Source: an uncultured Flavobacteriaceae bacterium (GTDB lineage: Bacteria; Bacteroidota; Bacteroidia; Flavobacteriales; Flavobacteriaceae). Taken from it: a DNA stretch of 64,000 nucleotides. The stretch covers positions 1 to 64,000 of the forward strand of contig CANNAC010000002.1 of assembly GCA_947502495.1 (NCBI GenBank), written 5' to 3'. Made by a program: the position numbers and the translations under genes. Below the pieces are notes generated by a model. It had not been told where the DNA came from. It did no database searches and saw only the letters and a list, made by a program, of their open reading frames with translations. Positions 45,409-62,688 of the stretch are shown here, in pieces. Every line of letters starts with the position of its first letter. Positions within the stretch are counted from its first letter, which is position 1.

Positions 45409-45885
45409 TTACTGAAGTCGCATTCTATCGCTAAATAAACTTACATCTTCTGCTTCTGCATCAAATCGGTTAAGATAAGGTCTAAATTCGACTGTAATCT
45501 TTTCAAAATTACTAGTAGTAAGTGGTTTATTAAGAAAACCAACACAAGAGTTTTGGTTTTGCGCTTTTTTAATGTCTTGAGAATTCGTTGACGAGCTTAG
45601 CATATATATTTTAATTTTAGTTTTATTTATCCTGGTTAACTTATTAAATTCATCTAAGAATTGAAACCCATCCATTTCTGGCATATTAATATCCAGTAAT
45701 ATGATATCTGGTGTAAACATTGTTGGGTAGACATCCTTTCCTTCTAAAATTTTCAAAAAAACGATAGCAGCATTGGCACTAGTAAAAGTTCTAATATTAC
45801 TACCTGCACTTACTTTTTCAATAATTTTTTGACCTACAAACAAATCTATTTTGTTATCATCAACTATCATAATGTTCATATCCAT
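45409..45885 (-). CDS. Single-domain response regulator
   Basis: 158-residue stand-alone receiver. The acidic pair is in MIVDDNKIDLF, the phospho-acceptor Asp in ILLDINMPEMDGF (near residue 65), the Thr/Ser switch in LSSSTNS and the Lys in FLNKPL (near 120). There is no output domain. It lies 15 bp after the PAS histidine kinase gene and is its likely partner. It is the last gene of the operon with a sigma-54-type promoter at 48595-48609. Confidence 0.93.
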   Translation of the reverse strand: MDMNIMIVDDNKIDLFVGQKIIEKVSAGSNIRTFTSANAAIVFLKILEGKDVYPTMFTPDIILLDINMPEMDGFQFLDEFNKLTRINKTKIKIYMLSSSTNSQDIKKAQNQNSCVGFLNKPLTTSNFEKITVEFRPYLNRFDAEAEDVSLFSDRMRLQ

Positions 45886-45900
45886 ATCCCAAATAATTAT

Positions 45901-47745
45901 TTAAATAACAGAAGGCAATACCACTTTAAAAACAGAACCGTTTTTAATGCTACTTTCCACCGTTATTACTCCCTTTAAATCTTCGACCATGTTTTTAACA
46001 ATATAAAGCCCTAAACCATGTCCTGGCACGTCATATTTATTTGCTCTGTAATACAAATCAAATATTTTATCCATCTTATTCTTATATATTCCAACACCAT
46101 TATCCTTAATAATAATTACAGCTTCCTTTTCAGATGTTTTCACTTTAATATTCACAAAAGGAGTTTCATTTTCTCTTGGCTCTCTAGAATATTTTACCGC
46201 GTTGTGAATTAAATTTTGAAGAATAGAATTTAACATTTCTTGATTAGAATAATGCCCATAAGTATCTACAACATCTATATTAAATTTTATGTTATCAAAT
46301 TTAGTAGTACCACTTAACAATTCTAATATATTATCTACCGTTTTCGAAAAGTCAATTTCTTTAGATTCTTTTTTCTTAACTGTGACACTGGATGCCTGAG
46401 AAAGGTTCTCCGACAATTCTTTTCCGTTTTTAATAACGGTATCTAGCATGTCTGTTAAAAACAAGATTCTATCTGGGTTCTTTTCTTCTTTTAACAAACT
46501 AAGTACTCCTTCAGCAGAAGAAAATGGCGCTTTAAGATCATGTGCTGAGCGATATAAAAACAACTCTAATTCTTCTGTTTTTTTCTTTAATTTATTCTCT
46601 AACACTTTACGGTTACTTATATCGAACATCATGGCGCAATAAAAAACATTTTCACCAACACTTCCATTACTTAAAGCAAACTCTACTGGAAAATGCTCTC
46701 CATTTTTACGCAAACAACACATTTCTATGATATCTACATTCTGTTTATTTCTTATCTTATTTACCGCTCTTAACAGCTCTTTAATATTACCATTTCTATA
46801 CTTTTTAGACATTAAAACGGTTAGTGATCTGCCAATCATTTCCTCTTCTACATAACCAAAAGCGGCTTCCGCCCCTTTATTCCATTCGGTAACATTACCT
46901 TTATCATCTGCGACTACAATAATACCCACATTAATAGATTGATAGATGCTTCTGAATTTTGCTTCACTATCTACAAGTTCATCACTAATACCTTTAAAAT
47001 CTGTAACTTCACGCAAAGCAATTGTGGAAGAAATAATTACGCCGAACTTGTCATAATTAGGAGAAACAATTACGGAAAAGAATATTTTCTTTCCGTTAGA
47101 ATCAAAATCATACAATTCAAATTGGTGTGTTGCTTTATCTATATAAACTTTATCAATATTATTTTTAAAGGCTTCAAAACTGGAAGCAATAAAGTAATCA
47201 TAAATATATGTACCAATTAATTTCTTAATCTCTGTATTACAAAAACTCTTATTTGCATTTAAAATCTTACCGTGTCTTGTAATAGTGAACACGTTTAAAG
47301 GCATGGCTTCTAAAAAACTCTCATTAATTGACTTCCCTTCGGAAAGCTTTTCATTCTCGTTATGATACTTAGTAACATCCTTATAAATCGATAAGTATTT
47401 CAAGCCTTTTTCGCCTTCATTTTTTATAGGAATAATGGTAGTATCTAACCAAAATGTTTTTCCTGTACTGGATACATCTGTTAAAACTCCATTCCACTTG
47501 TTCCCCATTTTAATGGTTCTCCACAAGTTTCTATATATTTTCCCTGTATAAAGAGGAGATTTTAGCAATTGATGCGTTTCACCCACGAGCTTATTAGCGT
47601 CACATTCTAAAATTTCACAAAATTTATCGTTTGCATATTCTATTCTGCCTAATGCATCTGTTACAGATACAATAGAATTTTCAATAACATCGATTAATAC
47701 GCTATCATTAAGAACATGAGAAAGGTTATATTTAATTGCTTCCAT
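45901..47745 (-). CDS. Cytoplasmic PAS-domain sensor histidine kinase
   Basis: 614-residue soluble kinase without membrane helices. Three PAS domains (~15-130, 140-255, 262-380) precede a phospho-acceptor helix (YRSAHDLKAPF, near residue 405) and a HATPase domain with N box LIHNAVKYSR, G1 DNGVGI and GLGLYIVKN. The H-box has DLKAP instead of the commoner ELRTP, as in the HWE-independent phytochrome-like kinases. Its start overlaps the STAS-like gene by 14 nt, and the receiver gene follows directly. It is inferred to be a sigma-54 target. Confidence 0.93.
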   Translation of the reverse strand: MEAIKYNLSHVLNDSVLIDVIENSIVSVTDALGRIEYANDKFCEILECDANKLVGETHQLLKSPLYTGKIYRNLWRTIKMGNKWNGVLTDVSSTGKTFWLDTTIIPIKNEGEKGLKYLSIYKDVTKYHNENEKLSEGKSINESFLEAMPLNVFTITRHGKILNANKSFCNTEIKKLIGTYIYDYFIASSFEAFKNNIDKVYIDKATHQFELYDFDSNGKKIFFSVIVSPNYDKFGVIISSTIALREVTDFKGISDELVDSEAKFRSIYQSINVGIIVVADDKGNVTEWNKGAEAAFGYVEEEMIGRSLTVLMSKKYRNGNIKELLRAVNKIRNKQNVDIIEMCCLRKNGEHFPVEFALSNGSVGENVFYCAMMFDISNRKVLENKLKKKTEELELFLYRSAHDLKAPFSSAEGVLSLLKEEKNPDRILFLTDMLDTVIKNGKELSENLSQASSVTVKKKESKEIDFSKTVDNILELLSGTTKFDNIKFNIDVVDTYGHYSNQEMLNSILQNLIHNAVKYSREPRENETPFVNIKVKTSEKEAVIIIKDNGVGIYKNKMDKIFDLYYRANKYDVPGHGLGLYIVKNMVEDLKGVITVESSIKNGSVFKVVLPSVI

Positions 47746-48157
47746 AAAAATTGTTTTTAGTTTCTACGCAATACTCTCTGGCAGATTCTAGATTATTAAA
47801 TACACCAAAAGGTGTAATCGGCTCATAAATTCTTTTATAAGAAGCTATCACAAGTTTTATTTCCATAGAATTAAAAACAAAGGCTTCCGAAATTCTTAGC
47901 TTACTTAGTATTGGAGAATTAGCTAATAAATTAGCGGTTTCACGAGTGTATGTTACTCGAATATCTCTGGAATCAATTAAAAAGGGCATCGCTTTGCCAT
48001 TACATAATTTAGCAATTGCGTCTATATATTGTTTTATTTTACTGGTTTCTAATTTATAATTCGCTTCCTTATTTCTAAACTGACAATAAAGAATATCATT
48101 GTCTGTCCAAAATTTTGAATTTCCAATCTGAATCATATCGTTCATACTAGTTGTCAT
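47732..48157 (-). CDS. STAS/SpoIIAA-like small protein (paralogue C)
   Basis: 141 residues, no signal or membrane helix. The pattern is beta (NSKFWTDNDILYCQF), a helix, beta (MPFLIDSRDIRV), a helix (NLLANSPILSKLRISEAFVF) and a final beta-alpha (GVFNNLESAREYC). This layout matches the STAS/SEC14-like small proteins common in Bacteroidota (DUF7793 as I remember it). It is a diverged paralogue of the proteins at 48147-48569 and 52277-52690. The function is unknown; STAS folds often act in partner switching. It overlaps both neighbours (11 and 14 nt). Confidence 0.8.
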   Translation of the reverse strand: MTTSMNDMIQIGNSKFWTDNDILYCQFRNKEANYKLETSKIKQYIDAIAKLCNGKAMPFLIDSRDIRVTYTRETANLLANSPILSKLRISEAFVFNSMEIKLVIASYKRIYEPITPFGVFNNLESAREYCVETKNNFYGSN

Positions 48158-48569
48158 AGGTTACAGAATTAAAAATTGCATAATTTTGATTACTATATTG
48201 TATCGCCAAATCGGAATCTTTAAAAATTAAATTTGGCACATTAGAATCGCTAAACATCACATAAAATGAAAGTAGCATTTTGTGTTTATAGTTCTTTATT
48301 AAAAACGCTTTAGACAGGACGACACTTTTAATTTTTGCATTATTTGACAAAAGCTTAAATAGTTTTACAGAAAGTCCAATATTGATTTCTCTAAAATCAA
48401 ATATTATAGGTAAATACGTACCATCTGACAACATGGAAATAGCTTCGTAAAACAGATCTTCAATACCCGCATCTGAATAGTCTACATTAGAACTATCATC
48501 TAATTTACAATAGATAACATTTCTGTTTACCCAAAACTTAATGTTGTTTATCCGTATTTCGTCTTTCAT
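48147..48569 (-). CDS. STAS/SpoIIAA-like small protein (paralogue B)
   Basis: 140 residues, cytoplasmic. The same fold pattern as its paralogues: KFWVNRNVIYCKL, YLPIIFDFREINI, LFKLLSNNAKIKSVVLSKAFLI and NLIFKDSDLAIQYS. It is closest to the 52277-52690 protein: both have F-K-x-L-SNN-x-KIKS-x-VLS. It is the first gene after a sigma-54-type promoter, with a leader of about 15 nt. Both sigma-54-type operons here open with this gene type, which suggests a shared regulatory or scaffolding role. Function unknown. Confidence 0.82.
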   Translation of the reverse strand: MKDEIRINNIKFWVNRNVIYCKLDDSSNVDYSDAGIEDLFYEAISMLSDGTYLPIIFDFREINIGLSVKLFKLLSNNAKIKSVVLSKAFLIKNYKHKMLLSFYVMFSDSNVPNLIFKDSDLAIQYSNQNYAIFNSVTYDN

Positions 48570-48594: not shown

Positions 48595-48609
48595 CCAATA
48601 GGAGTGCCA
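48595..48609 (-). promoter_or_regulatory. Sigma-54-type promoter P2 (-24/-12)
   Basis: TGGCACTCCTATTGG on the minus strand. TGGCAC at 48604-48609, a 5-base spacer and TTG at the -12 place match TGGCAC-N5-TTGC except for the last base (G for C). It lies 25 bp before the start of paralogue B. The same kind of element stands in the same place at P1. Confidence 0.78.
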
Positions 48610-48696
48610 AAAATTATTTTAACTAAAAATAAACATATAAACACCTTTAAATTAGATGTTTATAATTTTTATTCAGATTTTTAAAGAATAAAAAAA

Positions 48697-48712
48697 CATC
48701 GAAATACCACGA
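48697..48712 (-). promoter_or_regulatory. Weaker second activator site at P2
   Basis: CATCGAAATACCACGA matches 10 of 16 bases of the dyad at 48737-48752 and lies exactly 40 bp from it, about four helical turns. The equivalent site at P1 (52817-52832) has the same spacing. Confidence 0.5.
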
Positions 48713-48736: not shown

Positions 48737-48752
48737 TAACGGAATACCGTTA
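48737..48752. promoter_or_regulatory. Palindromic enhancer-type site upstream of P2
   Basis: TAACGGAATACCGTTA, a dyad with 6-bp arms. It is the exact reverse complement of the site at 52857-52872. It lies 127 bp upstream of the -24 element of P2, the usual range for sigma-54 activator binding, and one base past the stop codon of the preceding gene. Confidence 0.72.
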
Positions 48753-48753
48753 A

Positions 48754-50214
48754 TTATTTTATATTAAGGTTTAGTGAAAAAACAGCTAAAGACGTTGAGC
48801 CAACACCGACTAATCTTTGCCCCCAAATCTCTATATAATCATTTGGAGCAAGCTCTACAGTTCCAGAAATAGAATTACTAGAAATGTCTAATATATTATT
48901 AACACGCATTAACGTATTTGTTTCCGTTAGCGTTGTAGTTCCATTTTTTCTAATAAAAAAGGCATAGTAGTTACCAACTGTAGTAGTTCCTCTAACAGAT
49001 AAGGATGCGCTAATTTGAAATGTTCTAGTTTTTTTACCTAAATACGTAATTCTATTATTTTGAGGAGAAGACACTCGCATTAAGTTCACTGCGGTTGTAG
49101 TATTTGAATTACCATTTCCTAACAAATTTATTCCGGTTCCACTAGAAATGTCTTGTAAGAAACCGCTAGTGATTGTTCCATTGTAATAAATATTACCTGT
49201 TGCAACCTGATCAGACTCTACAGGTAATCCAGGGCAATCTACTGTCCATGCATTATTAAAATTGTATCCTGCATAAGAACCTGCGGTATACTTCTTTATG
49301 TATTGTGTACTAGTACCATTAAAACTGGCTCCTGTTAATATACCGTTTCCAACTACAGGATTAGAACTCACATCTATACCAATAGCAGAACCGTCTATTT
49401 GAGAAAAACCTCCTTGTTTTTCGATGATATTAAAAGTTCCAGTAAATGTTTCATACGTTCCCAGATTACTAGAAAACCACCCCATATTACTCAATAACAA
49501 ATGAGCCACATTATTATAGGTTATTCCTGTTGTATTTCCAGCAAACTGAACAATACTCAAAAATGCTAATCCGTAACCATCAATAGTACCTACTGATGTT
49601 GAATTTTTAACGATAGAATCTCTAAAAACAAAGCTATCGGCTACAGTTCCAGTCATATTAAAAACAGTTCCACCTGCTGCGATAAGCGTCACGTTTTTTA
49701 TACTTCCTCCTGCAGTTCCTACAATCATAGTTCCTCCAGTTTTTGTTAAGGTATCTTCATTGGTATCTATTCCATATATATACGCGTTATTTAAATCTAT
49801 GGAATGTGCCAAAGTAACCACACCATTTATTTCATATAAAGTATCTGAAGACAATAGGTATTTACTTCCTCCACCAGCAGTAAGCTCTGCGCTTAAATCT
49901 GCTGCTGAACTTATCATTTTATGTTTGTTTCTAGATTTTGAATCCATCTTCGTCCAAGATCCTGAACCATAAAAATAAAATGCATTTTCAGTAATATCAA
50001 ATACTAGTAAACCATTTGCTGGGGCAGAAATCGCTATTCTCTGCACAGATGTCATTCTTGGGGCCAACATACCTTTATCGACAGAGGTCAAGTCCAGCAT
50101 AGCGGAAGCGTCTGGTGTTAATGTCCCCACTCCTACTTGAGAAAATGCGCTATAATTACAACTAGCAAAAATTGCTATGGTTAATACGGTTAATCGTAGT
50201 TTTAAATTTTTCAT
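48754..50214 (-). CDS. Exported surface protein with VGVGT repeat-type N-terminus
   Basis: 486 residues with a signal peptide (ending NYSAFSQ). After it comes VGVGTLTPDASAMLDL and GMLAPRMTSVQRIAI, a segment common at the start of Bacteroidota surface and phage-tail-like proteins. The middle is Gly/Thr/Asn-rich beta structure. The last ~110 residues look like a jelly-roll (TYLGKKTRTFQISASLSVRG; LAPNDYIEIWGQR). No T9SS sorting domain is seen. It starts 2 bp after the T9SS protein gene, so they are co-expressed. The exact function is unknown. Confidence 0.85.
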   Translation of the reverse strand: MKNLKLRLTVLTIAIFASCNYSAFSQVGVGTLTPDASAMLDLTSVDKGMLAPRMTSVQRIAISAPANGLLVFDITENAFYFYGSGSWTKMDSKSRNKHKMISSAADLSAELTAGGGSKYLLSSDTLYEINGVVTLAHSIDLNNAYIYGIDTNEDTLTKTGGTMIVGTAGGSIKNVTLIAAGGTVFNMTGTVADSFVFRDSIVKNSTSVGTIDGYGLAFLSIVQFAGNTTGITYNNVAHLLLSNMGWFSSNLGTYETFTGTFNIIEKQGGFSQIDGSAIGIDVSSNPVVGNGILTGASFNGTSTQYIKKYTAGSYAGYNFNNAWTVDCPGLPVESDQVATGNIYYNGTITSGFLQDISSGTGINLLGNGNSNTTTAVNLMRVSSPQNNRITYLGKKTRTFQISASLSVRGTTTVGNYYAFFIRKNGTTTLTETNTLMRVNNILDISSNSISGTVELAPNDYIEIWGQRLVGVGSTSLAVFSLNLNIK

Positions 50215-50216
50215 AA

Positions 50217-52199
50217 TTAATAGGTTAAGATTTTTTGAGTTAATTCGCGATTTGTTGTTTCTACTTTTACAAAATAAATACCGTCACTTTGGTTAAATGG
50301 TATCTCTATTCTGTCTTTATTATTAAGGTTTGTATTTAGTTTTAAAACTTCCTGTCCTAAAACATTAAATATGGCTATTTTTTTTAAGGTAAGTCTATCC
50401 TGGTTATTTACCACAATGTTATTATTTCCATCATAGAAAATCTTTATGTTTTTAGCTTCTTCAGCATCTACAGATAATGTTTCAGACGGAGCAAAAACAA
50501 TAGAATATCTATCTAAATATTCCCCTATTGGCAAATTGACATTATAGCTAGAACCAGTTAAACTATGTGTAGTATTTAAAAGATTATCTTTCAAATAAAT
50601 TGGACCTAAAAAATTATCTATTTCATCGATCATTATTTGATGCGAACCAGCTTCACTAATAAACAATCCTAATGGAAACTCTAAAGCTTCATCAAAACCA
50701 CCCACTCCCTGTATGGCATATTTTTTAGCTGCATCATCCTCAATTACAAAAAACAAATCATCGTTTCTATACTCATTTAACACTGCATCATAACCTAGGT
50801 TATAATCCACATCTGCCGGCGAGTTTGGTAAAAAAGCCAAAAGTAATTGTCTATGAAACCCTTCAGGATCCTCATAACCTATTCGTATATATTGATTATT
50901 GACAGTCAATTCTGGATCTTCATCTGCATCCGCATCCATAGATGATTTATAAAAAATGGCATCACCTGACGATTCTGTTTTAAATTTTCTTTGTGAATTA
51001 TCAAAAACAACAGACCCACTTCCGTAAGCATTAACAAAAAAACCTTGACCAACTGGTACATATTGTTTAGGAGTGGAAACACTACCCGAACTACCAATAC
51101 CTCCAATTAAAGGCGAAGCTACAGATGGCGGAATACCACCGGATAAATTACGTATAGCATAACCACCTAAATAATCTGTAGTAGCATGCGAAGTAGAGCC
51201 TCCATCTACCCAAAAATAAAGAGCATCGAGTATCGTTAAATTATCTGTTATAAATTTAGTAGCATCTAATGCGGAAGGATACGGGTTACCTAGTAATGAT
51301 TCCTCTCCAGCATTTATAGGCATAAGATATTCTCCGTTATTAGGCGCTCCGTAATATGCATAGTTTTGACTAGCAGAAAGCGTATTACTCCCTTTCATAG
51401 TATAACCTTCACCTGGATTCAAAGCACTATTACTATCTAAACCAACCCAATCTGCATAAGCACCTGTTCCTTGCAAGTACTTATATATCCATCTCGTATT
51501 AATAGTCATCGAAGTAGTTACATTAGAACCACCATCTAATACAGATGGCACTCCATTATATGGAGAACTACCGCTAAATAACATTTGTTGTGGTGTAAAT
51601 GGGTTGAGACTAGAATCTGTTCCGTCATACATCGCGCCAGATAAAGAGAATGTCCCACTATTATTTACTGGTGCGGACCAATAATTAAATTTATACCCAG
51701 ACGCATACCCTTGTTGATCTATCAATATCTTACCAGTACTTACGGCATTAGCATCTGTACCTATGTGGGTTTGAATAAGCTGTGCTTCATTTATTAGACG
51801 AACATCTCCGCTCACTAAATTAATGGCATTACTAATATTTAAAGCAAAACCGTCGGCAACAGAAATTCCTTTCTTACTTACTGCTGTAATATCTATTTCT
51901 AGATTATTAAAATTAACAGCATTTGAAGAACCCGAAATACTAACCAATGGGTTGACTGCGCTTTTAAAATAGGTGGTTCCAGAAACAGAGGAAGTAGTAC
52001 CGTTATTTATAAAACTGTTATTTAAATACAGGTTTCCGTTACTGTCGTGTACACCGGTGCTTTTATTCGTGTATTCATTTTCAAAGTACACGTTTTCTGT
52101 TGGTGAGATTAGTAATATACCTTCATTTACAATTTGTGCATAACTGCTTAAAAAGCTAAAAAGAATAAGGCAATTACAAATAAAATATTTCTTTCTCAT
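50217..52199 (-). CDS. T9SS-sorted cell-surface protein
   Basis: 660 residues. The signal peptide ends LSSYAQ; the body is beta-rich and Gly/Ser/Asn-rich with SGSSNAVNFNNLEID-type segments. The C-terminal ~75 residues are a type A T9SS sorting domain (KIFYDGNNNIVV, IAIFNVLGQEV, GIYFVKVET, KILTY). It should cross the outer membrane through the T9SS and be attached or released. No enzymatic motif is seen, so it may be structural or adhesive. It is 77 bp after the STAS-like gene and 2 bp before the next exported protein. Confidence 0.92.
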   Translation of the reverse strand: MRKKYFICNCLILFSFLSSYAQIVNEGILLISPTENVYFENEYTNKSTGVHDSNGNLYLNNSFINNGTTSSVSGTTYFKSAVNPLVSISGSSNAVNFNNLEIDITAVSKKGISVADGFALNISNAINLVSGDVRLINEAQLIQTHIGTDANAVSTGKILIDQQGYASGYKFNYWSAPVNNSGTFSLSGAMYDGTDSSLNPFTPQQMLFSGSSPYNGVPSVLDGGSNVTTSMTINTRWIYKYLQGTGAYADWVGLDSNSALNPGEGYTMKGSNTLSASQNYAYYGAPNNGEYLMPINAGEESLLGNPYPSALDATKFITDNLTILDALYFWVDGGSTSHATTDYLGGYAIRNLSGGIPPSVASPLIGGIGSSGSVSTPKQYVPVGQGFFVNAYGSGSVVFDNSQRKFKTESSGDAIFYKSSMDADADEDPELTVNNQYIRIGYEDPEGFHRQLLLAFLPNSPADVDYNLGYDAVLNEYRNDDLFFVIEDDAAKKYAIQGVGGFDEALEFPLGLFISEAGSHQIMIDEIDNFLGPIYLKDNLLNTTHSLTGSSYNVNLPIGEYLDRYSIVFAPSETLSVDAEEAKNIKIFYDGNNNIVVNNQDRLTLKKIAIFNVLGQEVLKLNTNLNNKDRIEIPFNQSDGIYFVKVETTNRELTQKILTY

Positions 52200-52276
52200 A
52201 GGTTAAGGTTTGGGTTAAGAATAAATTTGCTTAATAGTTATTTCAAGTTAAAAGGGATTATTGATTTTATATAGTA

Positions 52277-52690
52277 CTAACTTAATGCGTTATACATCTT
52301 ATTGTTTTTATTACAATATTGCATTGCAGGTTGAAAATTTTTAAAAATAGCATCCGGAATAATAGTTAGATCCATAATGTTTTGAACAATTAAAAACAGT
52401 TTTAAACGGTAGGAGTTAACCAAGAAAGTTTCGGAAAGCACTATCGATTTAATTTTTGAATTATTAGACAGAAACTTAAACACCTTAATTCCGGCATAAA
52501 AATCGAGCGCTCTTAAGTTTATTAAAATAGGCATGTGCGTACCTTGCGATAATTTAGAAATAGTATTGGAAAAAATTTCTTCTAAATCCTTATCCAACCA
52601 TTTATCATTAAAATCGTTAGATACATTACAGAAGATTATGTTTTGATCTACTCTAAACTTAAAATAATTTGCTAACCTATTGTTTTCCAT
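52277..52690 (-). CDS. STAS/SpoIIAA-like small protein (paralogue A)
   Basis: 137 residues, cytoplasmic. Pattern: YFKFRVDQNIIFCNV, MPILINLRALDF, VFKFLSNNSKIKSIVLSETFLV, DAIFKNFQPAMQYC. Clearly related to paralogue B. It is the first gene of the operon that continues into the two exported proteins, directly after a sigma-54-type promoter with a leader of about 15 nt. The function is unknown. Pairing with surface-protein genes may mean it helps regulate or localise their production. Confidence 0.82.
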   Translation of the reverse strand: MENNRLANYFKFRVDQNIIFCNVSNDFNDKWLDKDLEEIFSNTISKLSQGTHMPILINLRALDFYAGIKVFKFLSNNSKIKSIVLSETFLVNSYRLKLFLIVQNIMDLTIIPDAIFKNFQPAMQYCNKNNKMYNALS

Positions 52691-52714
52691 TGGTGTTATT
52701 TTGAAAAACGTATT

Positions 52715-52729
52715 TCAATACAAGTGCCA
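52715..52729 (-). promoter_or_regulatory. Sigma-54-type promoter P1 (-24/-12)
   Basis: TGGCACTTGTATTGA on the minus strand. TGGCAC at 52724-52729, a 5-base spacer and TTG match TGGCAC-N5-TTGC except for the last base (A for C). It lies 24 bp before the start of paralogue A. Confidence 0.78.
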
Positions 52730-52750
52730 CAAATCACTATAGAGCAAAAA

Positions 52751-52789
52751 AAAATCATAAAACGCTAACAATTAACGTTTTATGATTTT
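52751..52789 (-). terminator. Intrinsic terminator after the giant activator gene
   Basis: AAAATCATAAAACG (52751-52764) and CGTTTTATGATTTT (52776-52789) form a 14-bp stem with an 11-nt loop. On the minus strand it is followed by a T-run. It stands between the activator gene and P1, so the downstream operon depends on P1. Confidence 0.88.
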
Positions 52790-52816
52790 AATTTACATTT
52801 TGGACATTTAAAAAAA

Positions 52817-52832
52817 TATCGCTATACCGCAC
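52817..52832 (-). promoter_or_regulatory. Weaker second activator site at P1
   Basis: TATCGCTATACCGCAC matches 10 of 16 bases of the dyad at 52857-52872 and lies exactly 40 bp from it, as at P2. Confidence 0.5.
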
Positions 52833-52856
52833 ATTTTTAAGACAAAACGCACGAAC

Positions 52857-52872
52857 TAACGGTATTCCGTTA
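52857..52872. promoter_or_regulatory. Palindromic enhancer-type site upstream of P1
   Basis: TAACGGTATTCCGTTA, the reverse complement of the P2 site. It ends 127 bp upstream of the P1 -24 element, the same distance as at P2. It overlaps the stop codon of the activator gene, so that gene's end is also a regulatory site. Confidence 0.72.
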
Positions 52873-55800
52873 TTTTTTTACAGTTTTTGAAACCCCTAAC
52901 TTTGTCATTCTATCTCGTAAAGTACTCGGCTTTAAACCTAGTATAAATGCTGCTCCATTTGGTCCACTAATTTTCCAATTACATTGTTCTAATACTTGCA
53001 TGATATGATCACGTTGCACAGAATCTAAAGTTAGATCCTGATTATTAATTGGTTTTACCTTTTGTGTAGAGGACTCAAAACCTGGTATCACTAATGTTTC
53101 TTTACTTGACAAGATTGAAGCTCGTTCTATTAAATTTTCTAATTCTCTAATATTCCCTGGCCAATCATATGCTTTTAATTGACTCATAGCATCATCTGTA
53201 ATATACTTAATGCTCTTACCATAAGCCTTATTAAACTTATCTACAAAATGCTCTACCAATAAAGGAATATCATCTTTTCTATCTCTTAAGGGAGGAACTA
53301 CTATTGGAAACACATTAAGCCTAAAGTATAGATCTTCTCTAAATTGCTTTTTCTTCACCTCTTCTATAAGATTTCGGTTTGTTGCAGCAATTACCCTAAC
53401 GTCCAGTTTCTTTAATCCGCTACTACCTCCAACTACTTCAATTTCTCCTTCTTGTAAAAATCGTAGTATTTTAGGTTGCATATCTAATGGTAGTTCTCCA
53501 ATTTCATCTAAAAACAAAGTACCACCATCTGCTAACTCAAATTTTCCAACTTTATCATTAATCGCTCCGGTAAACGAGCCTTTTTTATGCCCAAACAATT
53601 CACTTTCAATCAATTCTCTAGGAATCGCAGAACAGTTCACTTTAATCAATGGTTTCTTGTTACGCAAACTAGTGTTATGCACCGCTCTCGCTAATAGTTC
53701 TTTTCCTGTTCCAGATTCTCCTAACAATAACACGGTAGCTGTTGTTGGCGCAACTTTTTCAACCTCGGTTAAAACATTACTAAACACTTCACTTCCATAT
53801 ACCATTTCTTCATAGTTAAATACTAAATCTAACTCATTACGTAGATATACATTTTCTTGTTCTAATTGATTTCTTAATGCATTTAACTCTTTATTAACCT
53901 CAGTAAGCTTCTGGTTTGCAATTGCTATTTTATTTTCTGCTGTTTTACGTTCCGAGCTTTCTATCATTAAAGACACGATACTAGCTATAGAAGTAACAAA
54001 ACTTTCTTCATCTGCACTAAAAACTCTATTATCTGACTTACTCTCAAAACTAATAATACCATAATGGTTACCTCTACCATGAATTAACACATCTATTCTT
54101 GAAGAAATATGGTTAGGGACAAAAAATTCTTCTGCAAAGGCTTTGGTTATAGGGTTAGATTTTACATTGGCTATATTAATGCTGTTTTTAACATTAAATG
54201 CATTAAAATAATTTGGAAAATTCTCTTTTTCTATGGTTAACTCATTTATCTTAATAACGTCATCTTTTGCGCTATAAAACAACCTACTTGCTAGCTCCGT
54301 TTTATCCTTTCCATACTCCCAAATGGTCGCAAAATCGGCATGAAGCGCCTTCGCAGATGTTACTGCAATCTTTTTTAAAGAAGAATCAAAGTCTTCTCCA
54401 ATAAGACTAGCCAGCTCTAAAATAACATCTTTTTTTTCCGTGGATTTTACAGCAATATCTTCTAGTGTTTTTTTAACTTTTTCTTCTTCGGAAACATCTT
54501 TAATAGTTGCAAATATCGCGACAGTTTCTCCTTCATCGTTTTTTATAACTCCAGCCAAAAACGAAGCGATAAACGTACTTCCATCTTTTTTAATAAACTC
54601 TAATTGAAAGGATAGTGCTTCACCTTTTGCTACCGCATCCTTAATTTTCAACATATTGGGATAGTCCTTCTCTTGTGCGAATGGATATGGCAACTCCTGA
54701 CCAATAAGTTCATTTTCTGAATAGCCTAGAATTTCACATAAGGAATCGTTTACTTTCATTATGGTACCATTTAAATCCACCATAAGTAAACCCTCTTGCA
54801 TAGACATTACAAGATTTTCTGTAAATTCGTTTGCTATTTTAAGGTCTATTGCTGCTTTTTTACGAGCAGTAATATCCTGAATGGTACCAACAAAACTTGT
54901 GGCTTTTCCATTTATGTAAATAATTTCCCCTAAACCGTGAATCCATTTTAATTTCTTTGTCTTTTTAGTTAGGATTCTATATTCTAAATCAAACTTTTTA
55001 TTATGTTCTTGGGATTCTAAAACAACTTTTTTGATAATCGATCTGTCTTCAGGATAAACCGCCGATTTCCATGTCTCAAAATTGATTAAAGTATTCTTCT
55101 CTACACCTATAATTTCATTAAAGGTTGTTGAAGTTTCAGCTACTAAATCGATTAAACTTAAATTAAAACTTCCTGTTTTAGCTATTCTTTGCGCTTCTAA
55201 AAGCGACTTTTCACTTTCTTTAATTTTTATTTCTGATTGCTTTCGTTCGGTAATATCTTGAATAGTACCAATCATTTTTATAGGATTACCATCGTTATCC
55301 AAAACCAATTCCCCCATTCCATGTACCCAAACTTCTTCTTTACCATCTACTTTTAGAATCCTATATTCTTTATTAAATTTTTCTTTATTTTTTAAAATGT
55401 TAATATTCAAGTAATCCAATAATTCTTTTTGATCTTCAGGATGCACAATAGCAATCCAGCTTGCTATACTTTTGACATAAGATTTTTTTATACCAAAAAC
55501 ATTATCGAGCACCCCAGAACTTTTCCAAACATCATTTACAATATCTAGCGAATAGGTACCGATGTTTGCTAATATTTGTGATTGTCTTAAATTATATTCA
55601 CTCTCCAAAAGTTGCACTTCTGATTCTTTGCGTTGCGATATATCTTGAATAGTACCAAAAAACTCAACAGGCTCGTCATTATGACGAATAACCTCTCCTA
55701 ACGTATGAATCCACTTTAATTGCTTTGTATTTTTGGTTAGTATTCTAAATTCTAAATCAAATGCTTCCCCAGTTTTCAAACTCTTCTTAAACATTCTTTT

Positions 55801-58800
55801 ATCTAAAAGCGCATCCTCTGGATGAATTATGTCTGCCCAAGATTTAAAAGATAAAGTACTATCTGCATCTAAGCCTAAGATTTTTTTAAAAGTAGTGGAA
55901 GCCTCTATCTTATATGTTTTCAAGTTTAAACTATAACTTCCAATTTTCGCAATTTTTTGGGCCTCTAATAGCGATCTTTCGTTTTTCTGTAATTTTATTT
56001 CCGCCTGTTTCCGCTGCGATATATCTTGTATGGTTGCAATATTAGCGATAATTTCTCCTTCATTATTTTTAACAAAGGATGCAGACATTAAAACAGGGAA
56101 ACGCTCTCCGTTTTTTCGCATTAAAGTCAACTCCACCTTACTATATTCTCCTTTTAGAATATTTGCATAGGTTTCTTGAATTTCATCCCACTTTTCTGGT
56201 GGCCAATAATTAAATGGAGCCTTTTGACCAATTAACTCTTCTTTCTTAAAACGCAACATTTTACAAAGCGCTGGATTTGCTTCTATTTGCACACCTTCTA
56301 AGTTGACAACCGACAAACCTTCGTTTAAATTTAGAATAAGGTTTTCAGAAAAATCTTTGGCTAATTTTAAATCTATTTCTGCTTTTTTACGTTGCGTAAT
56401 ATCTTGTACCGTAGAGAAATTTGCTGTTTTTAGACCATTCTCATCATAAATACTAGAAACCAATACATGCACAGGAAAACGCTCTCCATTTTTACGCATG
56501 TACGTGTTTTCGTAATCTTTTTTATTTTTATTTTGTGTTAATAATTTATACCGTTCATCATTCTCTTTTCTTAATTCAGGTGGTGAGTACGGAAACGGTC
56601 GTTTAACTCCTATTAATTCTTTTTCGGTAAAACCTGTCATCTTACAAAATGCAGGATTTACACTAATTATTTCGGACTCTAAATTTATAGCGACTAAGCC
56701 TTCATGCATCCCTACCAAAAGACTAGTAGAGAATTCATTCGCTTTTTTTAAGTCTAACTCAATGTTTTTACGCTGGGTAATATCTTGAATAGTACCAACA
56801 AAATTTTTGGCTTCTCCATTAACATAAATGACTTCACCTATACCATGAATCCATTTTAATTCCTTTGTATCTTTTGTTATAATTCGATATTCTAAATCAA
56901 ATTTCTTTTTATGTTTTTGACTTTCGAAAACATTTTCTTTTATAATGGACCTATCTTCTGGATGTACTATAGATCTCCAAAGATCAAAATCTATCCGCAC
57001 ATCATTTCCTACTCCAATAATAGCATTAAAAGTCGCTGAAGTATCGCCAACTAAATTTTCAATCCTCAAATTAAAACTACCTATTTTTGCAACCTCCTGG
57101 GCAACTAATAAGGATTTCTCACTCTCTTGAAGTTTTAATTCAGAATGCTTCCGATTGGTGATATCCTGTATGGTACCAATCAATTTTACAGGCTTAGCCT
57201 CCTTATCAAAAACTAGTTCTCCAATACCATGTACCCAAACTTCTTCTTTAGTATCTGGTTTTAAAATTCTATATTCCTTATTGAATTTTTTATTATTTAG
57301 GATACAATTCTCAAAATAATTTAAGAACCCTTCTCTTTCATCGGCATGAACACAATCTCCCCAACTTGTAATGGTTTTCACAAATGTTTCATCCAAACCA
57401 AAAATAGCATCTAGAACGGCAGAACCTTCCCAGGTCTTTTTATTTATATCTACAGAATAAGAACCTATATTACCTACAATTTGAGATTGTCTTAATTGAT
57501 ACTCCCTTTCTTGTAGTTTTATTTCGGCAGTTTTACGATGCGTAATATCTTGTATGGTCCCAATTACTTTTATGGGATTTTCATCCATATCAAAAACCAA
57601 TTCCCCGATACCATGTACCCAAATTTCTTCGTTAGTATCTAATTTTAAAATTCGGTATTCTCTGTTAAACTTTTCATTATTTAGCACACAATTCTCGAAA
57701 TAGCTTGCCATTTCTTCTCTTTCCTCTGGATGAACACGCGCAATCCAGCCTTCCATATTTTTCGCATACGATTGAGGTATCCCAAAAATACTATACAATA
57801 GCACAGAGCCTTCCCAGGTATTGGTTCTTATATCTATAGTATAAGATCCAATATTACCAACTATTTGAGATTGTCTTAAATTATATTCACTTTCTCTAAG
57901 TTTTACTTCGGCTTTTTTACGTTCTGTAATATCTTGTGTAGTTCCTATAATTTTCACAGGATTTGCATCGTTGTCAAAAAGGAATTCTCCTCTTGCATGC
58001 ACCCAAATCTCTTCACGATTATCTATTCTTATCGCTCTATATTCGATATTAATTTTCTTCCTATTAAGAATACAACTTTCATAATAAGCTAAAACGTCTT
58101 CTCTTTCATCTGGATGAATAATCTCCCTCCAACCGCTCTCGGTTTTTAGATACGATTTATCAATTCCAAAAATTTTATTTAGCACAGCAGAACTTTCCCA
58201 AGTCTTTGTAGCGACATCGACAGTATAAGACCCAATATTGGCAACTATTTGAGATTGCCTTAAACTGTACTCACTTTCTAAAAGTTTTAATTCTGCTTTT
58301 TTACGTTCAGTTACATCCCTTGCAATACCAAGTATTTTACCGTCTTTTTGAAGTTTTGCAGAGACCTCTAAATCTAAGAATGATTTATCTTTGCGAAGAA
58401 ATTTTCTAGCAAAAATAATGGCTTCACCTGCAAGTAAACGGTTATGGTTTTCCACATTTTGAACAAAACCACCAACATTAAAATCTTGAATTTTTAAATT
58501 TAAAAACTCATTTCTAGTATATCCTAAACTGGTGTAGGCTGCTTTATTAAAATCATGTATTTCGCCATCTAAAGAATAGGAAATTATAGCATCATTCGCC
58601 TGATCAATTAACGCTCTATACGATTCATCTTTCGTCTTAATCTCTGCTACAATTCTAGATTTCTCAATCGCAATATTAACTAAGTTTAACGTGAAATTAA
58701 GCTCACGAATATCACTTAAAGAAGGCGCACTTATGGACGTACTATAAATAGCAAAAGTACCTATAACCGTTTTGTCTTTTGAAAAAACAGGAATAGACCA

Positions 58801-59655
58801 ACACGAGTTCAAATTGAATTTTAATGCGATAGTTTTATAATCCACCCATAACGGATCTGTACTTATATCGGAAACAATAACCGATTTTTTATGAAATGCT
58901 GCAGAACCACAAGAACCAACATGTGGTCCTACTGGAATTTTTTTCACTGCTAATTTATAGAGCTTAGGCAAGGAAGGTGCCGATTCTAGATCTAGATGCG
59001 TACCATCCTGATTCATCAAACTAATTGAACCGTAATAATCTGGATGAACAGATTCATAATTTAAAAGTAGGCGATCAAAAATTTCGTTTAAAGGTATATT
59101 TAGGGCAATTAAATCTAGTATTTCATTTTTATGAATTAATAATTGCTCTGCTTTTTCTCGTTCTACAACCTCTTTTTCAAGATCTAAATTCTTATGCTCC
59201 AGCTTACTAATCAAGCGCTTACTATAGAGCTTCAATACTTCTTCTTCGGTAAACTCAACATCTTTAGGAGGCTCTACTTCTAGTTTAGCTTTACCCAAAA
59301 GACCTTGAACTACTTCCGCAATTTTATTTTGGTCTGTTGGTTTTCTTAGAAATTGATCTGCTCCTAATTTTATAGCAAAATCTTCATCAAGCGCCTCGGT
59401 ATACGTAGATGTGTAAAAAACAAATGGGATATTTTTAAAAGACTCCTCTTTTTTACATGCTTGACAAAACATATACCCATCCATAACGGGCATTAAAATA
59501 TCGGAGATAATTAAGTCCACGCTACATTCATGTAGTTTTTCTAAGCCTTCTTTACCGTCTTTGGCTTCTACAACCACATACCCTACTTCTTCAAGTATAA
59601 CTCTTAGTAAATATAGGTTCTCAAAAGTATCATCTACTATTAATATAGTTTTCAT
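52870..59655 (-). CDS. Giant sigma-54 activator: REC-GAF-11xPAS-GAF-AAA+-Fis HTH
   Basis: 2261-residue enhancer-binding protein. REC domain 1-125 (acidic pair D8/D9, phospho-acceptor D52, K105), coiled coil, GAF (~185-330), eleven PAS units (~345-1720, period ~127 residues), a second GAF (~1745-1890) and a coiled coil. Then the AAA+ sigma-54 domain (~1955-2180): Walker A GESGTGKE near 1978, Walker B GTLFLDEIGE, and the sigma-54 loop GSFTGA in place of the usual GAFTGA. A Fis-type HTH closes the protein (NGAAFILGLKPSTLRDRM). No kinase domain. Most family members have one sensor domain, so this is very large. It starts 7 bp after the CheY gene. Confidence 0.93.
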   Translation of the reverse strand: MKTILIVDDTFENLYLLRVILEEVGYVVVEAKDGKEGLEKLHECSVDLIISDILMPVMDGYMFCQACKKEESFKNIPFVFYTSTYTEALDEDFAIKLGADQFLRKPTDQNKIAEVVQGLLGKAKLEVEPPKDVEFTEEEVLKLYSKRLISKLEHKNLDLEKEVVEREKAEQLLIHKNEILDLIALNIPLNEIFDRLLLNYESVHPDYYGSISLMNQDGTHLDLESAPSLPKLYKLAVKKIPVGPHVGSCGSAAFHKKSVIVSDISTDPLWVDYKTIALKFNLNSCWSIPVFSKDKTVIGTFAIYSTSISAPSLSDIRELNFTLNLVNIAIEKSRIVAEIKTKDESYRALIDQANDAIISYSLDGEIHDFNKAAYTSLGYTRNEFLNLKIQDFNVGGFVQNVENHNRLLAGEAIIFARKFLRKDKSFLDLEVSAKLQKDGKILGIARDVTERKKAELKLLESEYSLRQSQIVANIGSYTVDVATKTWESSAVLNKIFGIDKSYLKTESGWREIIHPDEREDVLAYYESCILNRKKINIEYRAIRIDNREEIWVHARGEFLFDNDANPVKIIGTTQDITERKKAEVKLRESEYNLRQSQIVGNIGSYTIDIRTNTWEGSVLLYSIFGIPQSYAKNMEGWIARVHPEEREEMASYFENCVLNNEKFNREYRILKLDTNEEIWVHGIGELVFDMDENPIKVIGTIQDITHRKTAEIKLQEREYQLRQSQIVGNIGSYSVDINKKTWEGSAVLDAIFGLDETFVKTITSWGDCVHADEREGFLNYFENCILNNKKFNKEYRILKPDTKEEVWVHGIGELVFDKEAKPVKLIGTIQDITNRKHSELKLQESEKSLLVAQEVAKIGSFNLRIENLVGDTSATFNAIIGVGNDVRIDFDLWRSIVHPEDRSIIKENVFESQKHKKKFDLEYRIITKDTKELKWIHGIGEVIYVNGEAKNFVGTIQDITQRKNIELDLKKANEFSTSLLVGMHEGLVAINLESEIISVNPAFCKMTGFTEKELIGVKRPFPYSPPELRKENDERYKLLTQNKNKKDYENTYMRKNGERFPVHVLVSSIYDENGLKTANFSTVQDITQRKKAEIDLKLAKDFSENLILNLNEGLSVVNLEGVQIEANPALCKMLRFKKEELIGQKAPFNYWPPEKWDEIQETYANILKGEYSKVELTLMRKNGERFPVLMSASFVKNNEGEIIANIATIQDISQRKQAEIKLQKNERSLLEAQKIAKIGSYSLNLKTYKIEASTTFKKILGLDADSTLSFKSWADIIHPEDALLDKRMFKKSLKTGEAFDLEFRILTKNTKQLKWIHTLGEVIRHNDEPVEFFGTIQDISQRKESEVQLLESEYNLRQSQILANIGTYSLDIVNDVWKSSGVLDNVFGIKKSYVKSIASWIAIVHPEDQKELLDYLNINILKNKEKFNKEYRILKVDGKEEVWVHGMGELVLDNDGNPIKMIGTIQDITERKQSEIKIKESEKSLLEAQRIAKTGSFNLSLIDLVAETSTTFNEIIGVEKNTLINFETWKSAVYPEDRSIIKKVVLESQEHNKKFDLEYRILTKKTKKLKWIHGLGEIIYINGKATSFVGTIQDITARKKAAIDLKIANEFTENLVMSMQEGLLMVDLNGTIMKVNDSLCEILGYSENELIGQELPYPFAQEKDYPNMLKIKDAVAKGEALSFQLEFIKKDGSTFIASFLAGVIKNDEGETVAIFATIKDVSEEEKVKKTLEDIAVKSTEKKDVILELASLIGEDFDSSLKKIAVTSAKALHADFATIWEYGKDKTELASRLFYSAKDDVIKINELTIEKENFPNYFNAFNVKNSINIANVKSNPITKAFAEEFFVPNHISSRIDVLIHGRGNHYGIISFESKSDNRVFSADEESFVTSIASIVSLMIESSERKTAENKIAIANQKLTEVNKELNALRNQLEQENVYLRNELDLVFNYEEMVYGSEVFSNVLTEVEKVAPTTATVLLLGESGTGKELLARAVHNTSLRNKKPLIKVNCSAIPRELIESELFGHKKGSFTGAINDKVGKFELADGGTLFLDEIGELPLDMQPKILRFLQEGEIEVVGGSSGLKKLDVRVIAATNRNLIEEVKKKQFREDLYFRLNVFPIVVPPLRDRKDDIPLLVEHFVDKFNKAYGKSIKYITDDAMSQLKAYDWPGNIRELENLIERASILSSKETLVIPGFESSTQKVKPINNQDLTLDSVQRDHIMQVLEQCNWKISGPNGAAFILGLKPSTLRDRMTKLGVSKTVKK

Positions 59656-59662
59656 GCCCTAA

Positions 59663-60031
59663 TTATGCTTTATATATACTTTCCATTTGTTTTACAAAAG
59701 TATCTGGATTAATAGGTTTCTCTATATATCCATTCGCACCAGCTTCAATCGCTTTTTCTTTATCTCCAGCCATTGCGTATGATGTTACTGCTATAATTAC
59801 TGTGTTTTTAGGCAACCCATTATTTCTTAATTTACTACAAATCTCATAGCCATCCATATCTGGTAATTGTATATCTATTAAAATAACTTCAGGATGGTTT
59901 TCATGAGCTAAATTTAATCCATCCATCCCGTTATAAGCCTTAAGCACACCATACTCGCTATTCGTAAGGAGGTATGAAAGCATATACATATTTTGTTCAT
60001 TATCTTCAATTATTAAAATGGTAGGTTTCAT
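59663..60031 (-). CDS. CheY-like single-domain response regulator
   Basis: 122-residue receiver without an output domain. The acidic pair is in LIIEDNEQN, the phospho-acceptor Asp in LIDIQLPDMDGYE (near residue 53), the switch Thr in AVTSYAM and the Lys in YIEKPI (near 104). It lies between the CHASE histidine kinase (86 bp upstream) and the giant activator (7 bp downstream). It may be a phosphate shuttle or sink between the kinase and the activator's own receiver. Confidence 0.95.
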   Translation of the reverse strand: MKPTILIIEDNEQNMYMLSYLLTNSEYGVLKAYNGMDGLNLAHENHPEVILIDIQLPDMDGYEICSKLRNNGLPKNTVIIAVTSYAMAGDKEKAIEAGANGYIEKPINPDTFVKQMESIYKA

Positions 60032-60117
60032 TTCTTTTGTATAAAATTTAATATCAATGAGTTAAGCTCTAAATATATTAAAATTGGCATTATAAACTAA
60101 ATTATAATAACATTTTA

Positions 60118-62646
60118 TTATTCTTTGTAAGAATATTCTAACGGTAACTTAAAGGTGAAATTACTACCTTCCCCTAGCTCACTTTCTACGTGAATTGTTC
60201 CTCCTAATTTCTCCACTAAACTCTTACAAATAGCCAATCCAAGACCAGTACCTTCATGCTTTCTATTAAGACCTCCTTCTATTTGAATAAAAGGCATAAA
60301 TAATTTAATAGCATCTTTTTGAGTAATCCCTATTCCTTGATCTATAACCTGAGTAATAAGCATATTATCTTTAATATTGATTTTAACAAGTATTATTCCT
60401 TTATCCGAAAACTTAATCGCATTAGAAAGTAAGTTTAACAAGACTTGTTCCACACGTCTTTCATCACTTACTAGCGTGATATCAAAGTCAGAAATTTCTG
60501 TTTTTATAACAAGTCCTTTTCTGGAAGCTTGTGGTTCTAGAAAATCAATGGTATTTTCTAAAGACTCTAGATAATTAAATGGATAAAAGGATACTTTTAA
60601 TTTACCTGCTTCTATTTTAGAGATGTCTAATACATCATTAATTAAGCTCAGCAAGTGCGCACTACTATTTTTAACCATAGAGAGTTGTTTTTTCTGCTCT
60701 GCGTTTAATGGCCCTGCTAATTCTTTTAACAAAATTCCTGTAAACCCAATAATAGAATTCATTGGTGTTCTTAACTCGTGTGACATGGTTGCTAGAAATG
60801 CAGATTTCATTAAATCTGCGGATTGCGCTTTTACTTTTTCTTTTTCTAATTCGGTAGATTGCAAATTGATATCTTCTAAAAGATTTAATAAAGCTTCTTT
60901 ACTATCATTGAGTTCTTCGGTTCTTGAATCCACCAATTCTTGTAGATTGTTTTTAAAAATCAACAATTCTTTTTCGTTTGCTATTCTTTCGGTAATATCG
61001 GTAGCGATTCCAATATAACCATGCATACTATTATCTGCATCCAACAACTTTGTTGCCTTTACCGCAACGATAGTATTTTTTTTGTTTTTATCCTGAAATC
61101 TATATTCCGCTTTAAATTCTCTACCTTGAGCTACTGCCTCTCCCCAATCTTTCAATACTCTTATTTTATCTTCTGGGTGCAAGCCGTTGTGCCAACCAAA
61201 CCCCATGGCTTCTAAAAAAGTCATTCCTGTATATTTTAGCCATTCGTCATTTACATATGTACACTCCCCTAATTCATTTGTATTAAAAATAGCTACAGGT
61301 GCATTAGACGTGAGACTACGATACAATAGCTCCCTATTTTTAAGAACTTCTTCTGTTTTTATTCTACTAGTAACATCTTGTATGGTACCAAAGGTTTTTT
61401 TAGCTTTCTGATTTTTATCATAAAATGTTTCGCACTGTTCATTCACATACTTAATACGTTCATTATCGAGCTTTAGCCTATAAATTATTTGATAAGAGCT
61501 TTTATTTTCTACAGAATCGGCATAGATTTCCATTACCATTTCTTTGTCTTCTGGGTGAATAGTATCTACAAACGCCTCATAAGTAACTTCAAAATTTTTA
61601 GGGTCCTTTTCAAATATCCTATACATTTCATTGGACCATGTTAATTTATTCGTTTCCTTATCCAACTCCCAACTCCCAAGTTTAGCAATCTGTTGTGCTT
61701 TTCTTAAATTGGACTCACTTTTTTTTATTTTTTTTGAAGTTGTTTTATAAATGGACTCTAATTGCTTTTCCTGCACTAAAAGTTTAGATACAATCAATCC
61801 TTTTAATCGTGTAGATCGACCACCAAAATACCAAATACTCCAACTACTAAAAAAGGCTATTAAAACACCCAGTATTGAAGACCATATGGCTGTATTAACT
61901 TTTTGCCGCAATGGCACCACATAGAGCTTCCATTCTCCAGAAGACATTTCTACCGGTATTGCAAATTCTTTATAAGGTGACATATCGCTTTCTAAAAAAA
62001 ACTCTTCTTTTCCCGTTTCCAAATTGACTCTAGACAATTGATAAATAAAACGGTGCTCATTAGAGCTATCAATAATCAAATCATTAAAAAAAGTAGAGAG
62101 CTTTGTAACCACGGCCGAAAATCCAGAAAATTCTCCATCTATAAAGATGGGCTGTCTACTTATCATACCAATACCTCCTTGTTCTAGGTGTACCGGACCT
62201 GCAATAAAAAAATCTCTTCTCTTAATGGTCGTAAGAGAACCACTGCGAGCTTCAGGGCTTGTTAGAATATTAAAACCAATAACTTCATTATTTTTTAAAG
62301 GATACACGTGCGTAATAAATCCTTCCCGATCCACGAGCTCTACAACATCAAAATATTTGCTTCTATTTAATAATTCGGCTGCAATTTTATCAAAATCGGG
62401 TGGTACACCATTTCTTTCTACTATATACTCTAATGATTTTGTAGCCGAATAGCTATACATAACTAGCGATTGCAGTTTTTCTTTAATTAAACTTACTTGG
62501 TTATTAATTTCTTGTTTTTGCTCACTTCTACTTATCACATACTCCTGATAAGCAATATATTGGGTAGCAAAAAGCAGTACTATAAAAAACAAAAAAGCTA
62601 ATACTAAAGGTTTTTTAAAAAAAAGAAAAAAAGTACTTTTATTCAT
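60118..62646 (-). CDS. CHASE-PAS membrane sensor histidine kinase
   Basis: 842 residues. TM1 near 12-31, a periplasmic CHASE-type domain (~60-230; YFDVVELVDREGFITHVYP, FFIAGPVHLEQGGIGMISRQ), TM2 near 253-272, a coiled coil, PAS (~310-430), PAS (~440-555) and a second coiled coil. HisKA follows with its phospho-acceptor His in MSHELRTPMNS (near 620), then HATPase (~725-838) with NLLSNAIKFS, DQGIGI and GTGLGLAICK. CHASE domains bind small extracellular ligands; the ligand here is unknown. It has no receiver of its own, so the CheY protein and the activator REC are the likely targets. Confidence 0.94.
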   Translation of the reverse strand: MNKSTFFLFFKKPLVLAFLFFIVLLFATQYIAYQEYVISRSEQKQEINNQVSLIKEKLQSLVMYSYSATKSLEYIVERNGVPPDFDKIAAELLNRSKYFDVVELVDREGFITHVYPLKNNEVIGFNILTSPEARSGSLTTIKRRDFFIAGPVHLEQGGIGMISRQPIFIDGEFSGFSAVVTKLSTFFNDLIIDSSNEHRFIYQLSRVNLETGKEEFFLESDMSPYKEFAIPVEMSSGEWKLYVVPLRQKVNTAIWSSILGVLIAFFSSWSIWYFGGRSTRLKGLIVSKLLVQEKQLESIYKTTSKKIKKSESNLRKAQQIAKLGSWELDKETNKLTWSNEMYRIFEKDPKNFEVTYEAFVDTIHPEDKEMVMEIYADSVENKSSYQIIYRLKLDNERIKYVNEQCETFYDKNQKAKKTFGTIQDVTSRIKTEEVLKNRELLYRSLTSNAPVAIFNTNELGECTYVNDEWLKYTGMTFLEAMGFGWHNGLHPEDKIRVLKDWGEAVAQGREFKAEYRFQDKNKKNTIVAVKATKLLDADNSMHGYIGIATDITERIANEKELLIFKNNLQELVDSRTEELNDSKEALLNLLEDINLQSTELEKEKVKAQSADLMKSAFLATMSHELRTPMNSIIGFTGILLKELAGPLNAEQKKQLSMVKNSSAHLLSLINDVLDISKIEAGKLKVSFYPFNYLESLENTIDFLEPQASRKGLVIKTEISDFDITLVSDERRVEQVLLNLLSNAIKFSDKGIILVKINIKDNMLITQVIDQGIGITQKDAIKLFMPFIQIEGGLNRKHEGTGLGLAICKSLVEKLGGTIHVESELGEGSNFTFKLPLEYSYKE

Positions 62647-62688
62647 AAGTTGACAAAGTTAAATAGATTATTGATTTTAATAGTTAAT

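Follow-up and report, generated by a model that had tools for sequence, protein, structure and literature searches.

Paired dyads ahead of sigma-54-type promoters as very probable docking sites of a signal-sensing activator in Flavobacteriaceae

The window, the whole stretch of DNA analysed here, comprises 64,000 nucleotides of an uncultured Flavobacteriaceae bacterium (contig CANNAC010000002.1, assembly GCA_947502495.1) whose genome is available as 4.07 Mb in 60 contigs. It carries the gene for a sigma-54 activator, i.e. a bacterial enhancer-binding protein (bEBP), followed by two groups of genes, each behind a sigma-54-type promoter (P1 and P2) and each promoter preceded by the 16-bp dyad ACGGWATWCCGT. 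All the genes discussed lie on the minus strand. What are these dyads for? Comparison with relatives makes it highly likely that they are enhancer sites (upstream activating sequences, UAS) for the adjacent activator of 2261 amino acids.

Dyads, promoters and activator in the window

The features around the two promoters are the following; the enhancer sites are predicted from sequence and the promoter elements are assigned by sequence pattern. IHF stands for integration host factor.

52870..59655, minus strand: sigma-54 activator (bEBP), 2261 amino acids, with receiver, GAF, many PAS, AAA+ and a C-terminal Fis-type helix-turn-helix (HTH)
52857..52872, minus strand: putative enhancer site 1 of P1, overlapping the activator stop codon (52870-52872)
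52817..52832, minus strand: putative enhancer site 2 of P1, degenerate, GTGCGGTATAGCGATA, 9.4 bits, 40 bp from site 1
52770..52782, plus strand: IHF-like element of P1, one mismatch to WATCARN4TTR, centre 47 bp from TGG
52751..52789, minus strand: likely terminator of the activator gene, an 18-bp hairpin with a T run behind it, lying between site 2 and P1
52715..52729, minus strand: -24/-12 element P1, TGGCACTTGTATTGA
48737..48752, minus strand: putative enhancer site 1 of P2, directly past the stop codon of the gene S486
48697..48712, minus strand: putative enhancer site 2 of P2, degenerate, TCGTGGTATTTCGATG, 9.2 bits, 40 bp from site 1
48650..48662, plus strand: IHF-like element of P2, one mismatch to WATCARN4TTR, centre 47 bp from TGG
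48595..48609, minus strand: -24/-12 element P2, TGGCACTCCTATTGG

The first-pass annotation had described the two site 1 dyads as 16-mers that are reverse complements of each other, each 127 bp from a sigma-54-type promoter. The DNA bears this out: read on the minus strand, the distance from dyad to TGGCAC is 127 bp at both places. It had also proposed a genome search for TAACGG-N4-CCGTTA, with abundance away from sigma-54-type promoters counting against an enhancer. The search finds two copies in 4.07 Mb, each 127 bp before TGGCAC-N5-TTG, and none with the reversed pattern; copies of the exact dyad lacking -24/-12 elements are not common in this genome. The promoters themselves are recognised by the pattern TGGCAY-N5-TTGC, with a perfect -24 part and an imperfect -12 part in P1 and P2, and the genome has one rpoN match (PF04552, 7.2e-52). 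What the earlier description had missed is a second, degenerate dyad 40 bp downstream of each first one.

Is the neighbouring protein an activator of the right kind? It matches Sigma54_activat (PF00158) at 1.1e-67 and Response_reg at 1.7e-22, and its AAA+ domain has the Walker A motif GESGTGKE and the loop GSFTGA, a variant of GAFTGA. The Fis-type HTH attributed to it holds as well: HTH_8 scores 1.4e-4 and 21.9 bits, narrowly under the 22-bit cut-off, and the domain is conserved in 11 orthologues, with the residues STLRD invariant in all 11 aligned sequences. The length of the activator ranges from 784 to 2261 amino acids among orthologues linked to such loci, and a frame of 533 amino acids is found in an unlinked one (genome G233); the variation is presumably due to PAS copy number. 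Upstream of the activator gene (59663-63963) the window encodes a receiver-only protein, a PAS histidine kinase and a PAS-only protein. Relatives of these lie beside the activator in several loci, and the three proteins are possible input partners.

An array that is conserved, specific and linked to the activator gene

Do relatives keep this arrangement of site 1, site 2 and promoter, called the array here? A first set was built from 91 DUF7793 places, 42 of them strong and 49 weaker (the two in the window being among the weaker). Forty stretches of DNA were fetched: one surrounds a dyad in the genome G080, and the other 39 take in 44 of the 49 weaker places. The activator adjoins DUF7793 genes in 19 of the 40 stretches, at 20 junctions. 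At all 20, spread over 19 family loci, site 1 lies at or near the activator stop codon and is followed 125-139 bp later by a -24/-12-like, sigma-54-type element. The best two dyads are 39-42 bp apart at every junction, while the search required only a distance of at least 16 bp. The dyad consensus from the junctions is approximately NMACGGWATWCCGTKN, with a centre, WATW, that is conserved beside the stem letters. The dyads are thus placed as UAS would be, about 80-200 bp upstream, and kept among orthologous promoters. The set rises to 25 promoters with an array without a nearby activator (L091) and the third promoters, described below, of the subject genome and a congener. The spacers between site 2 and promoter are nearly unalignable across these promoters (median identity 38% over all pairs versus 34% when shuffled), so the array spacing outlives the sequence. 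DUF7793 itself is not a marker of the array: 30 of the 42 strong-match loci (L019-L048, about 3.3 kb each, the activator not searched there) are without one.

A held-out set was then gathered by homology to the secreted protein S660, with the motif matrix fixed beforehand; the best 80 of 108 relatives gave 79 distinct loci, five of which belong to genomes already in the first set. The activator is present in 20 of the 79, of which 15 are new, and all 15 have the array. Among the 59 loci without an activator in the fetched DNA, two have the array (L163 and L175, where it precedes a response regulator and S660, or S660-S486) and 57 have none; several of the array-free loci are short contigs, so the absence of the activator there may be the effect of a cut. 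Over both sets, 2.25 Mb yield 44 arrays in 42 loci, counting the five shared genomes twice. The reversed sequence and five dinucleotide shuffles yield none. The enhancer proposal of the first-pass annotation is strengthened by this: it holds in relatives fetched after the matrix was fixed, and dyad core and promoter occur together at three places of the subject genome.

Where an array stands alone, is the activator elsewhere in the genome? It is in both genomes searched, a count that leaves out L163. L. himadriensis (L175) encodes an activator of 95% identity at another place, and this gene has its own array just behind the stop codon; the one in G233 is 78% identical. Turning to whole genomes, the strict pattern CGGWATNNCG-N118-145-TGGCAYN5TTG is found at 21 places in 18 of 22 genomes and never in the reversed control. 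Nineteen of the places are at DUF7793 loci, with the activator adjoining except in G233; of the remaining two, one is on a different contig of the subject genome and one at a distant place in the congener G168. Among 395 genomes of the order, the strict pattern occurs in the subject genome only (3 places), and the reversed control has 3 matches elsewhere. Since no other carrier genomes were seen among the 395, this search tests specificity and not spread. The exact dyad occurs in 32 of 299 family genomes sampled. Outside the subject genome it has 35 places, 29 of which were fetched; the four with a full array are all at activator/DUF7793 junctions, and a bare dyad away from such a locus is background. 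The dyad in G080 is one of chance: it has no array, and the nearest activator (56%) is without a site in its 3.9-kb locus.

The subject genome's third array, a putative target in trans, lies on contig C1 (754318-754473, minus strand; 10018-10173 of the fetched stretch L154), with the -24/-12 element TGGCACCTAAATTGC, a full TTGC in its -12 part, a consensus IHF-like site and a gap of 129 bp from site 1 to TGG. The distant promoter of G168 precedes a protein of 254 amino acids whose N-terminus is like that of S486. Behind the third array of the subject genome only about 53 C-terminal codons of a homologue are left; the secreted-protein gene, decayed here, is whole in the congener (L158). The two arrays lie about 190 bp (subject genome) and about 350 bp (G168) past the preceding gene.

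Two further observations concern individual loci. L079 has two tandem activator-DUF7793 cassettes (9253-9436 and 14887-15071), with a first dyad that reads TAACGG..CCGTTA in one and CCACGG..CCGTGG in the other; this difference in the outer letters could perhaps insulate two paralogous activators from each other. In the promoter regions of L081 and L098, site 2 is seen by eye at the tip of a long hairpin, which may terminate the activator gene, enhancer and terminator then sharing the same DNA.

Downstream genes, spacing and the intervening element

The genes behind the two promoters are these, all on the minus strand:

52277..52690: DUF7793-like D1, first gene after P1, a paralogue of D2, itself unmatched in Pfam at E 0.001
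50217..52199: S660, predicted to be secreted, downstream of P1, with a type A sorting domain of the type IX secretion system (T9SS; PF18962, 2.8e-6; TIGR04183, 3e-8)
48754..50214: S486, last gene after P1; no Pfam or NCBIfam match, secretion predicted from its N-terminus
48147..48569: DUF7793 protein D2, first gene after P2 (PF25056, 4.8e-8)
47732..48157: DUF7793 protein D3 (PF25056, 1.8e-11)
45901..47745: PAS sensor histidine kinase (domain scan), likely in the same operon as D2-D3
45409..45885: single-domain response regulator (domain scan), likely in the same operon as D2-D3

Why does the window have two dyads? Five relatives (L085, L087, L089, L090 and L092) have the activator first, then the array, the DUF7793 gene(s), the kinase, the response regulator, S660 and lastly S486, with one array found per stretch. 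Two promoters are present in the window and in Lacinutrix sp. C3R15 (L162): a DUF7793-S660-S486 unit follows one, and two further DUF7793 genes follow the other. In L162, too, the gap is 127 at both. The window locus thus looks as if an operon had been split and its promoter copied, and this splitting of the single-promoter order would account for the two dyads. Are the dyads and their equal spacing then merely inherited from a duplicated promoter and first gene, the spacing being unconstrained? The single-promoter order is in favour of it, as are the paralogy of D1 and D2 (94.8 bits) and the spacers of P1 and P2, which are 63% identical against the 38% median; from the last, the equality of 127 and 127 owes something to duplication. 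Duplication does not explain two dyads and a gap of 125-131 bp in other genera, nor the third promoter on another contig, and the array persists in relatives whose spacers can barely be aligned. Duplication is rejected as a complete explanation for this reason, and we regard it as very unlikely.

How fixed is the geometry, then? The equal spacing had been taken to suggest a fixed DNA loop, and this claim survives in part. The gap between site 1 and TGG is 125-131 bp in 23 of the 25 promoters (138 and 139 in the other two) and in 38 of all 44. In the remaining six it is 117-118 (four Winogradskyella loci) or 138 and 139 (two), and the equality seen in the window is partly due to duplication. 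Any constraint is therefore on the geometry, perhaps on the helical face, and not on exactly 127 bp; a fixed loop is only suggested by these sequences. The six outlying promoters are about one helical turn shorter or longer. They represent shifts in three lineages, of about -9.5, +10.7 and +11.7 bp (p about 0.03 by a crude estimate); scanning over periods does not single out 10.5 bp. With only three shifted lineages, helical phasing is only suggestive.

Between site 2 and the promoter a third element is conserved. WATCARN4TTR is a documented IHF consensus that usually lies between enhancer and promoter (PMC7962754; this and the other papers given by PMC number are cited from excerpts). First noticed by eye in the spacers, it is present in 14 of 25 in the first set (shuffle mean 0.64, maximum 4) and in 10 of 18 held-out spacers (shuffle mean 0.40), nine of which have it where the first set does (shuffle mean 0.029); the held-out matches were already visible when the expected place was fixed. 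De novo alignment of 43 spacers gives 18.6 bits, compared with 5.2-6.1 for eight letter shuffles run with fewer iterations. The genome has two PF00216 genes, which identifies the IHF/HU family and does not distinguish IHF from HU. The element resembles an IHF site.

A probable enhancer system, its rivals and its meaning

Which protein binds the dyads? Adjacency is no proof of this, and the genome has 11 matches to the sigma-54 activator domain, four of them strong: the activator and three other bEBPs. A different regulator, a repressor or another activator, might occupy the dyads, with the promoters driven by another bEBP. Several findings are against this. The array lies behind the activator gene in the 19 family loci and the 15 held-out loci, stand-alone arrays come with an activator orthologue elsewhere in both genomes searched, and STLRD in the HTH does not vary. 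The 18-kb regions surrounding the other three strong bEBPs contain no strong dyad site, and the other operon proteins covered by the Pfam scan show no DNA-binding domain. Binding by a different regulator is thus judged highly improbable. It is hardly credible that the dyads act mainly at the RNA level, as hairpins that terminate or attenuate transcription where the preceding genes end: both pass a terminator-like scan on the plus strand, and in several relatives site 2 precedes T runs or sits in a longer hairpin (by eye), but the genes are on the minus strand, where no T run follows site 1, the WATW centre is conserved beyond the stem, site 2 of the window has no self-complementary stem, the third arrays lie about 190 and 350 bp behind the preceding gene, Rfam gives no match, and a separate terminator-like hairpin is present at 52751-52789.

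Several points count against the enhancer reading. The link between activator and dyad is one of adjacency and co-occurrence, not of contact. In the window, site 2 is weak at both promoters (9.2 and 9.4 bits versus 23.2 for site 1), the -12 parts are TTGA and TTGG instead of TTGC, and the IHF-like elements carry one mismatch each. A laxer -12, T[T/G]G, is needed for both L079 promoters, one of which was recovered only in this way, and for the four Winogradskyella promoters. The activator of G233 has no dyad site in its 4-kb locus, and four of the 22 genomes lack the strict pattern (G118, G063 and G107, whose arrays have other letters, and G080, which has none). All carriers found belong to one family, so the samples are not independent. 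Dyad forms with up to two mismatches are not enriched in the subject genome (116 places versus 138 in the reversed control); within the window looser forms number 4 against a shuffle mean of 1.41, and 8 of 100 shuffles reach 4. The case therefore depends on the exact copies and on the relatives.

How might the system work? The dyads of the window are very probably docking sites of the signal-sensing activator. Input through its receiver, GAF and PAS domains would switch the activator, which would bind the two dyads, form an AAA+ ring and reach the sigma-54 RNA polymerase via a DNA loop. Each promoter would be laid out as site 1, site 2 some 40 bp on, possibly an IHF-like bend some 35-47 bp ahead of the promoter, where IHF or HU may act, and the -24/-12 element. 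Expression from P1 would give the DUF7793-like protein and a pair of secreted proteins, and that from P2 two DUF7793 proteins, the PAS histidine kinase and the response regulator, these operon limits being predicted; the array on the other contig would be a third target promoter.

The kind of system is known. The nifH promoter is an example of an enhancer of the NtrC/NifA type combined with IHF and a sigma-54 promoter, and the sites of NorR and FhlA are unlike the window dyad. It is standard for an activator to bind about 100-150 bp upstream and to act through a loop with the help of IHF (PMC7057263). The present system shares with the NtrC/NifA type upstream dyads at about 100-150 bp, an AAA+ activator with a Fis-type HTH, the -24/-12 element and a candidate IHF site in between. 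It differs in the dyad (ACGGWATWCCGT), the clade and the regulon, in an IHF role that is predicted, and in an enhancer that overlaps the activator stop codon. With the FhlA/NorR bEBPs (NCBIfam) the activator shares an AAA+ and HTH part that aligns to the FhlA model over its final 352 positions, whereas its input part is receiver-GAF-PAS, and the activator-family models among the 25 of 110 matches listed are all below their curated cut-offs. In Flavobacterium psychrophilum, sigma-54 promoters control exported proteins and gliding/T9SS adhesin genes, and three proteins have a sigma-54 interaction domain; in the excerpt those promoters are defined by -24/-12 only, unlike here, and no activator sites are assigned (PMC9723704). 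The excerpt of a 2025 sigma-54 survey gives no activator sites for Flavobacteriia (PMC12316311), and a Clostridiales study gives activator motifs in a figure and files (PMC6615313). The core letters of the dyad do occur in the excerpt of PMC13207237, as part of a predicted -24/-12 site, which is unrelated. Neither an enhancer site with this motif nor a study of this activator family or of DUF7793 function was found in the open literature (subscription papers, and the PMC6615313 motif figure and files, being outside its scope); motif, regulon and clade were not found in print.

A more specific picture is tentative and somewhat doubtful: an enhancer complex of conserved geometry within one family, the Flavobacteriaceae, in which the dyads would be about four helical turns apart, the bend at a fixed distance from the promoter, the gap changing mainly by whole turns, and a T9SS secreted-protein module under control. 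The enhancer would be nested at the activator stop codon, so that activator and regulon would travel as one unit. The enhancer reading yields a site that can be tested, names an activator family and outlines a small regulon, which would consist of DUF7793 proteins, secreted proteins and feedback through the kinase and response regulator. For the family, the 44 natural promoters would serve to find out how much variation an enhancer loop tolerates in its geometry.

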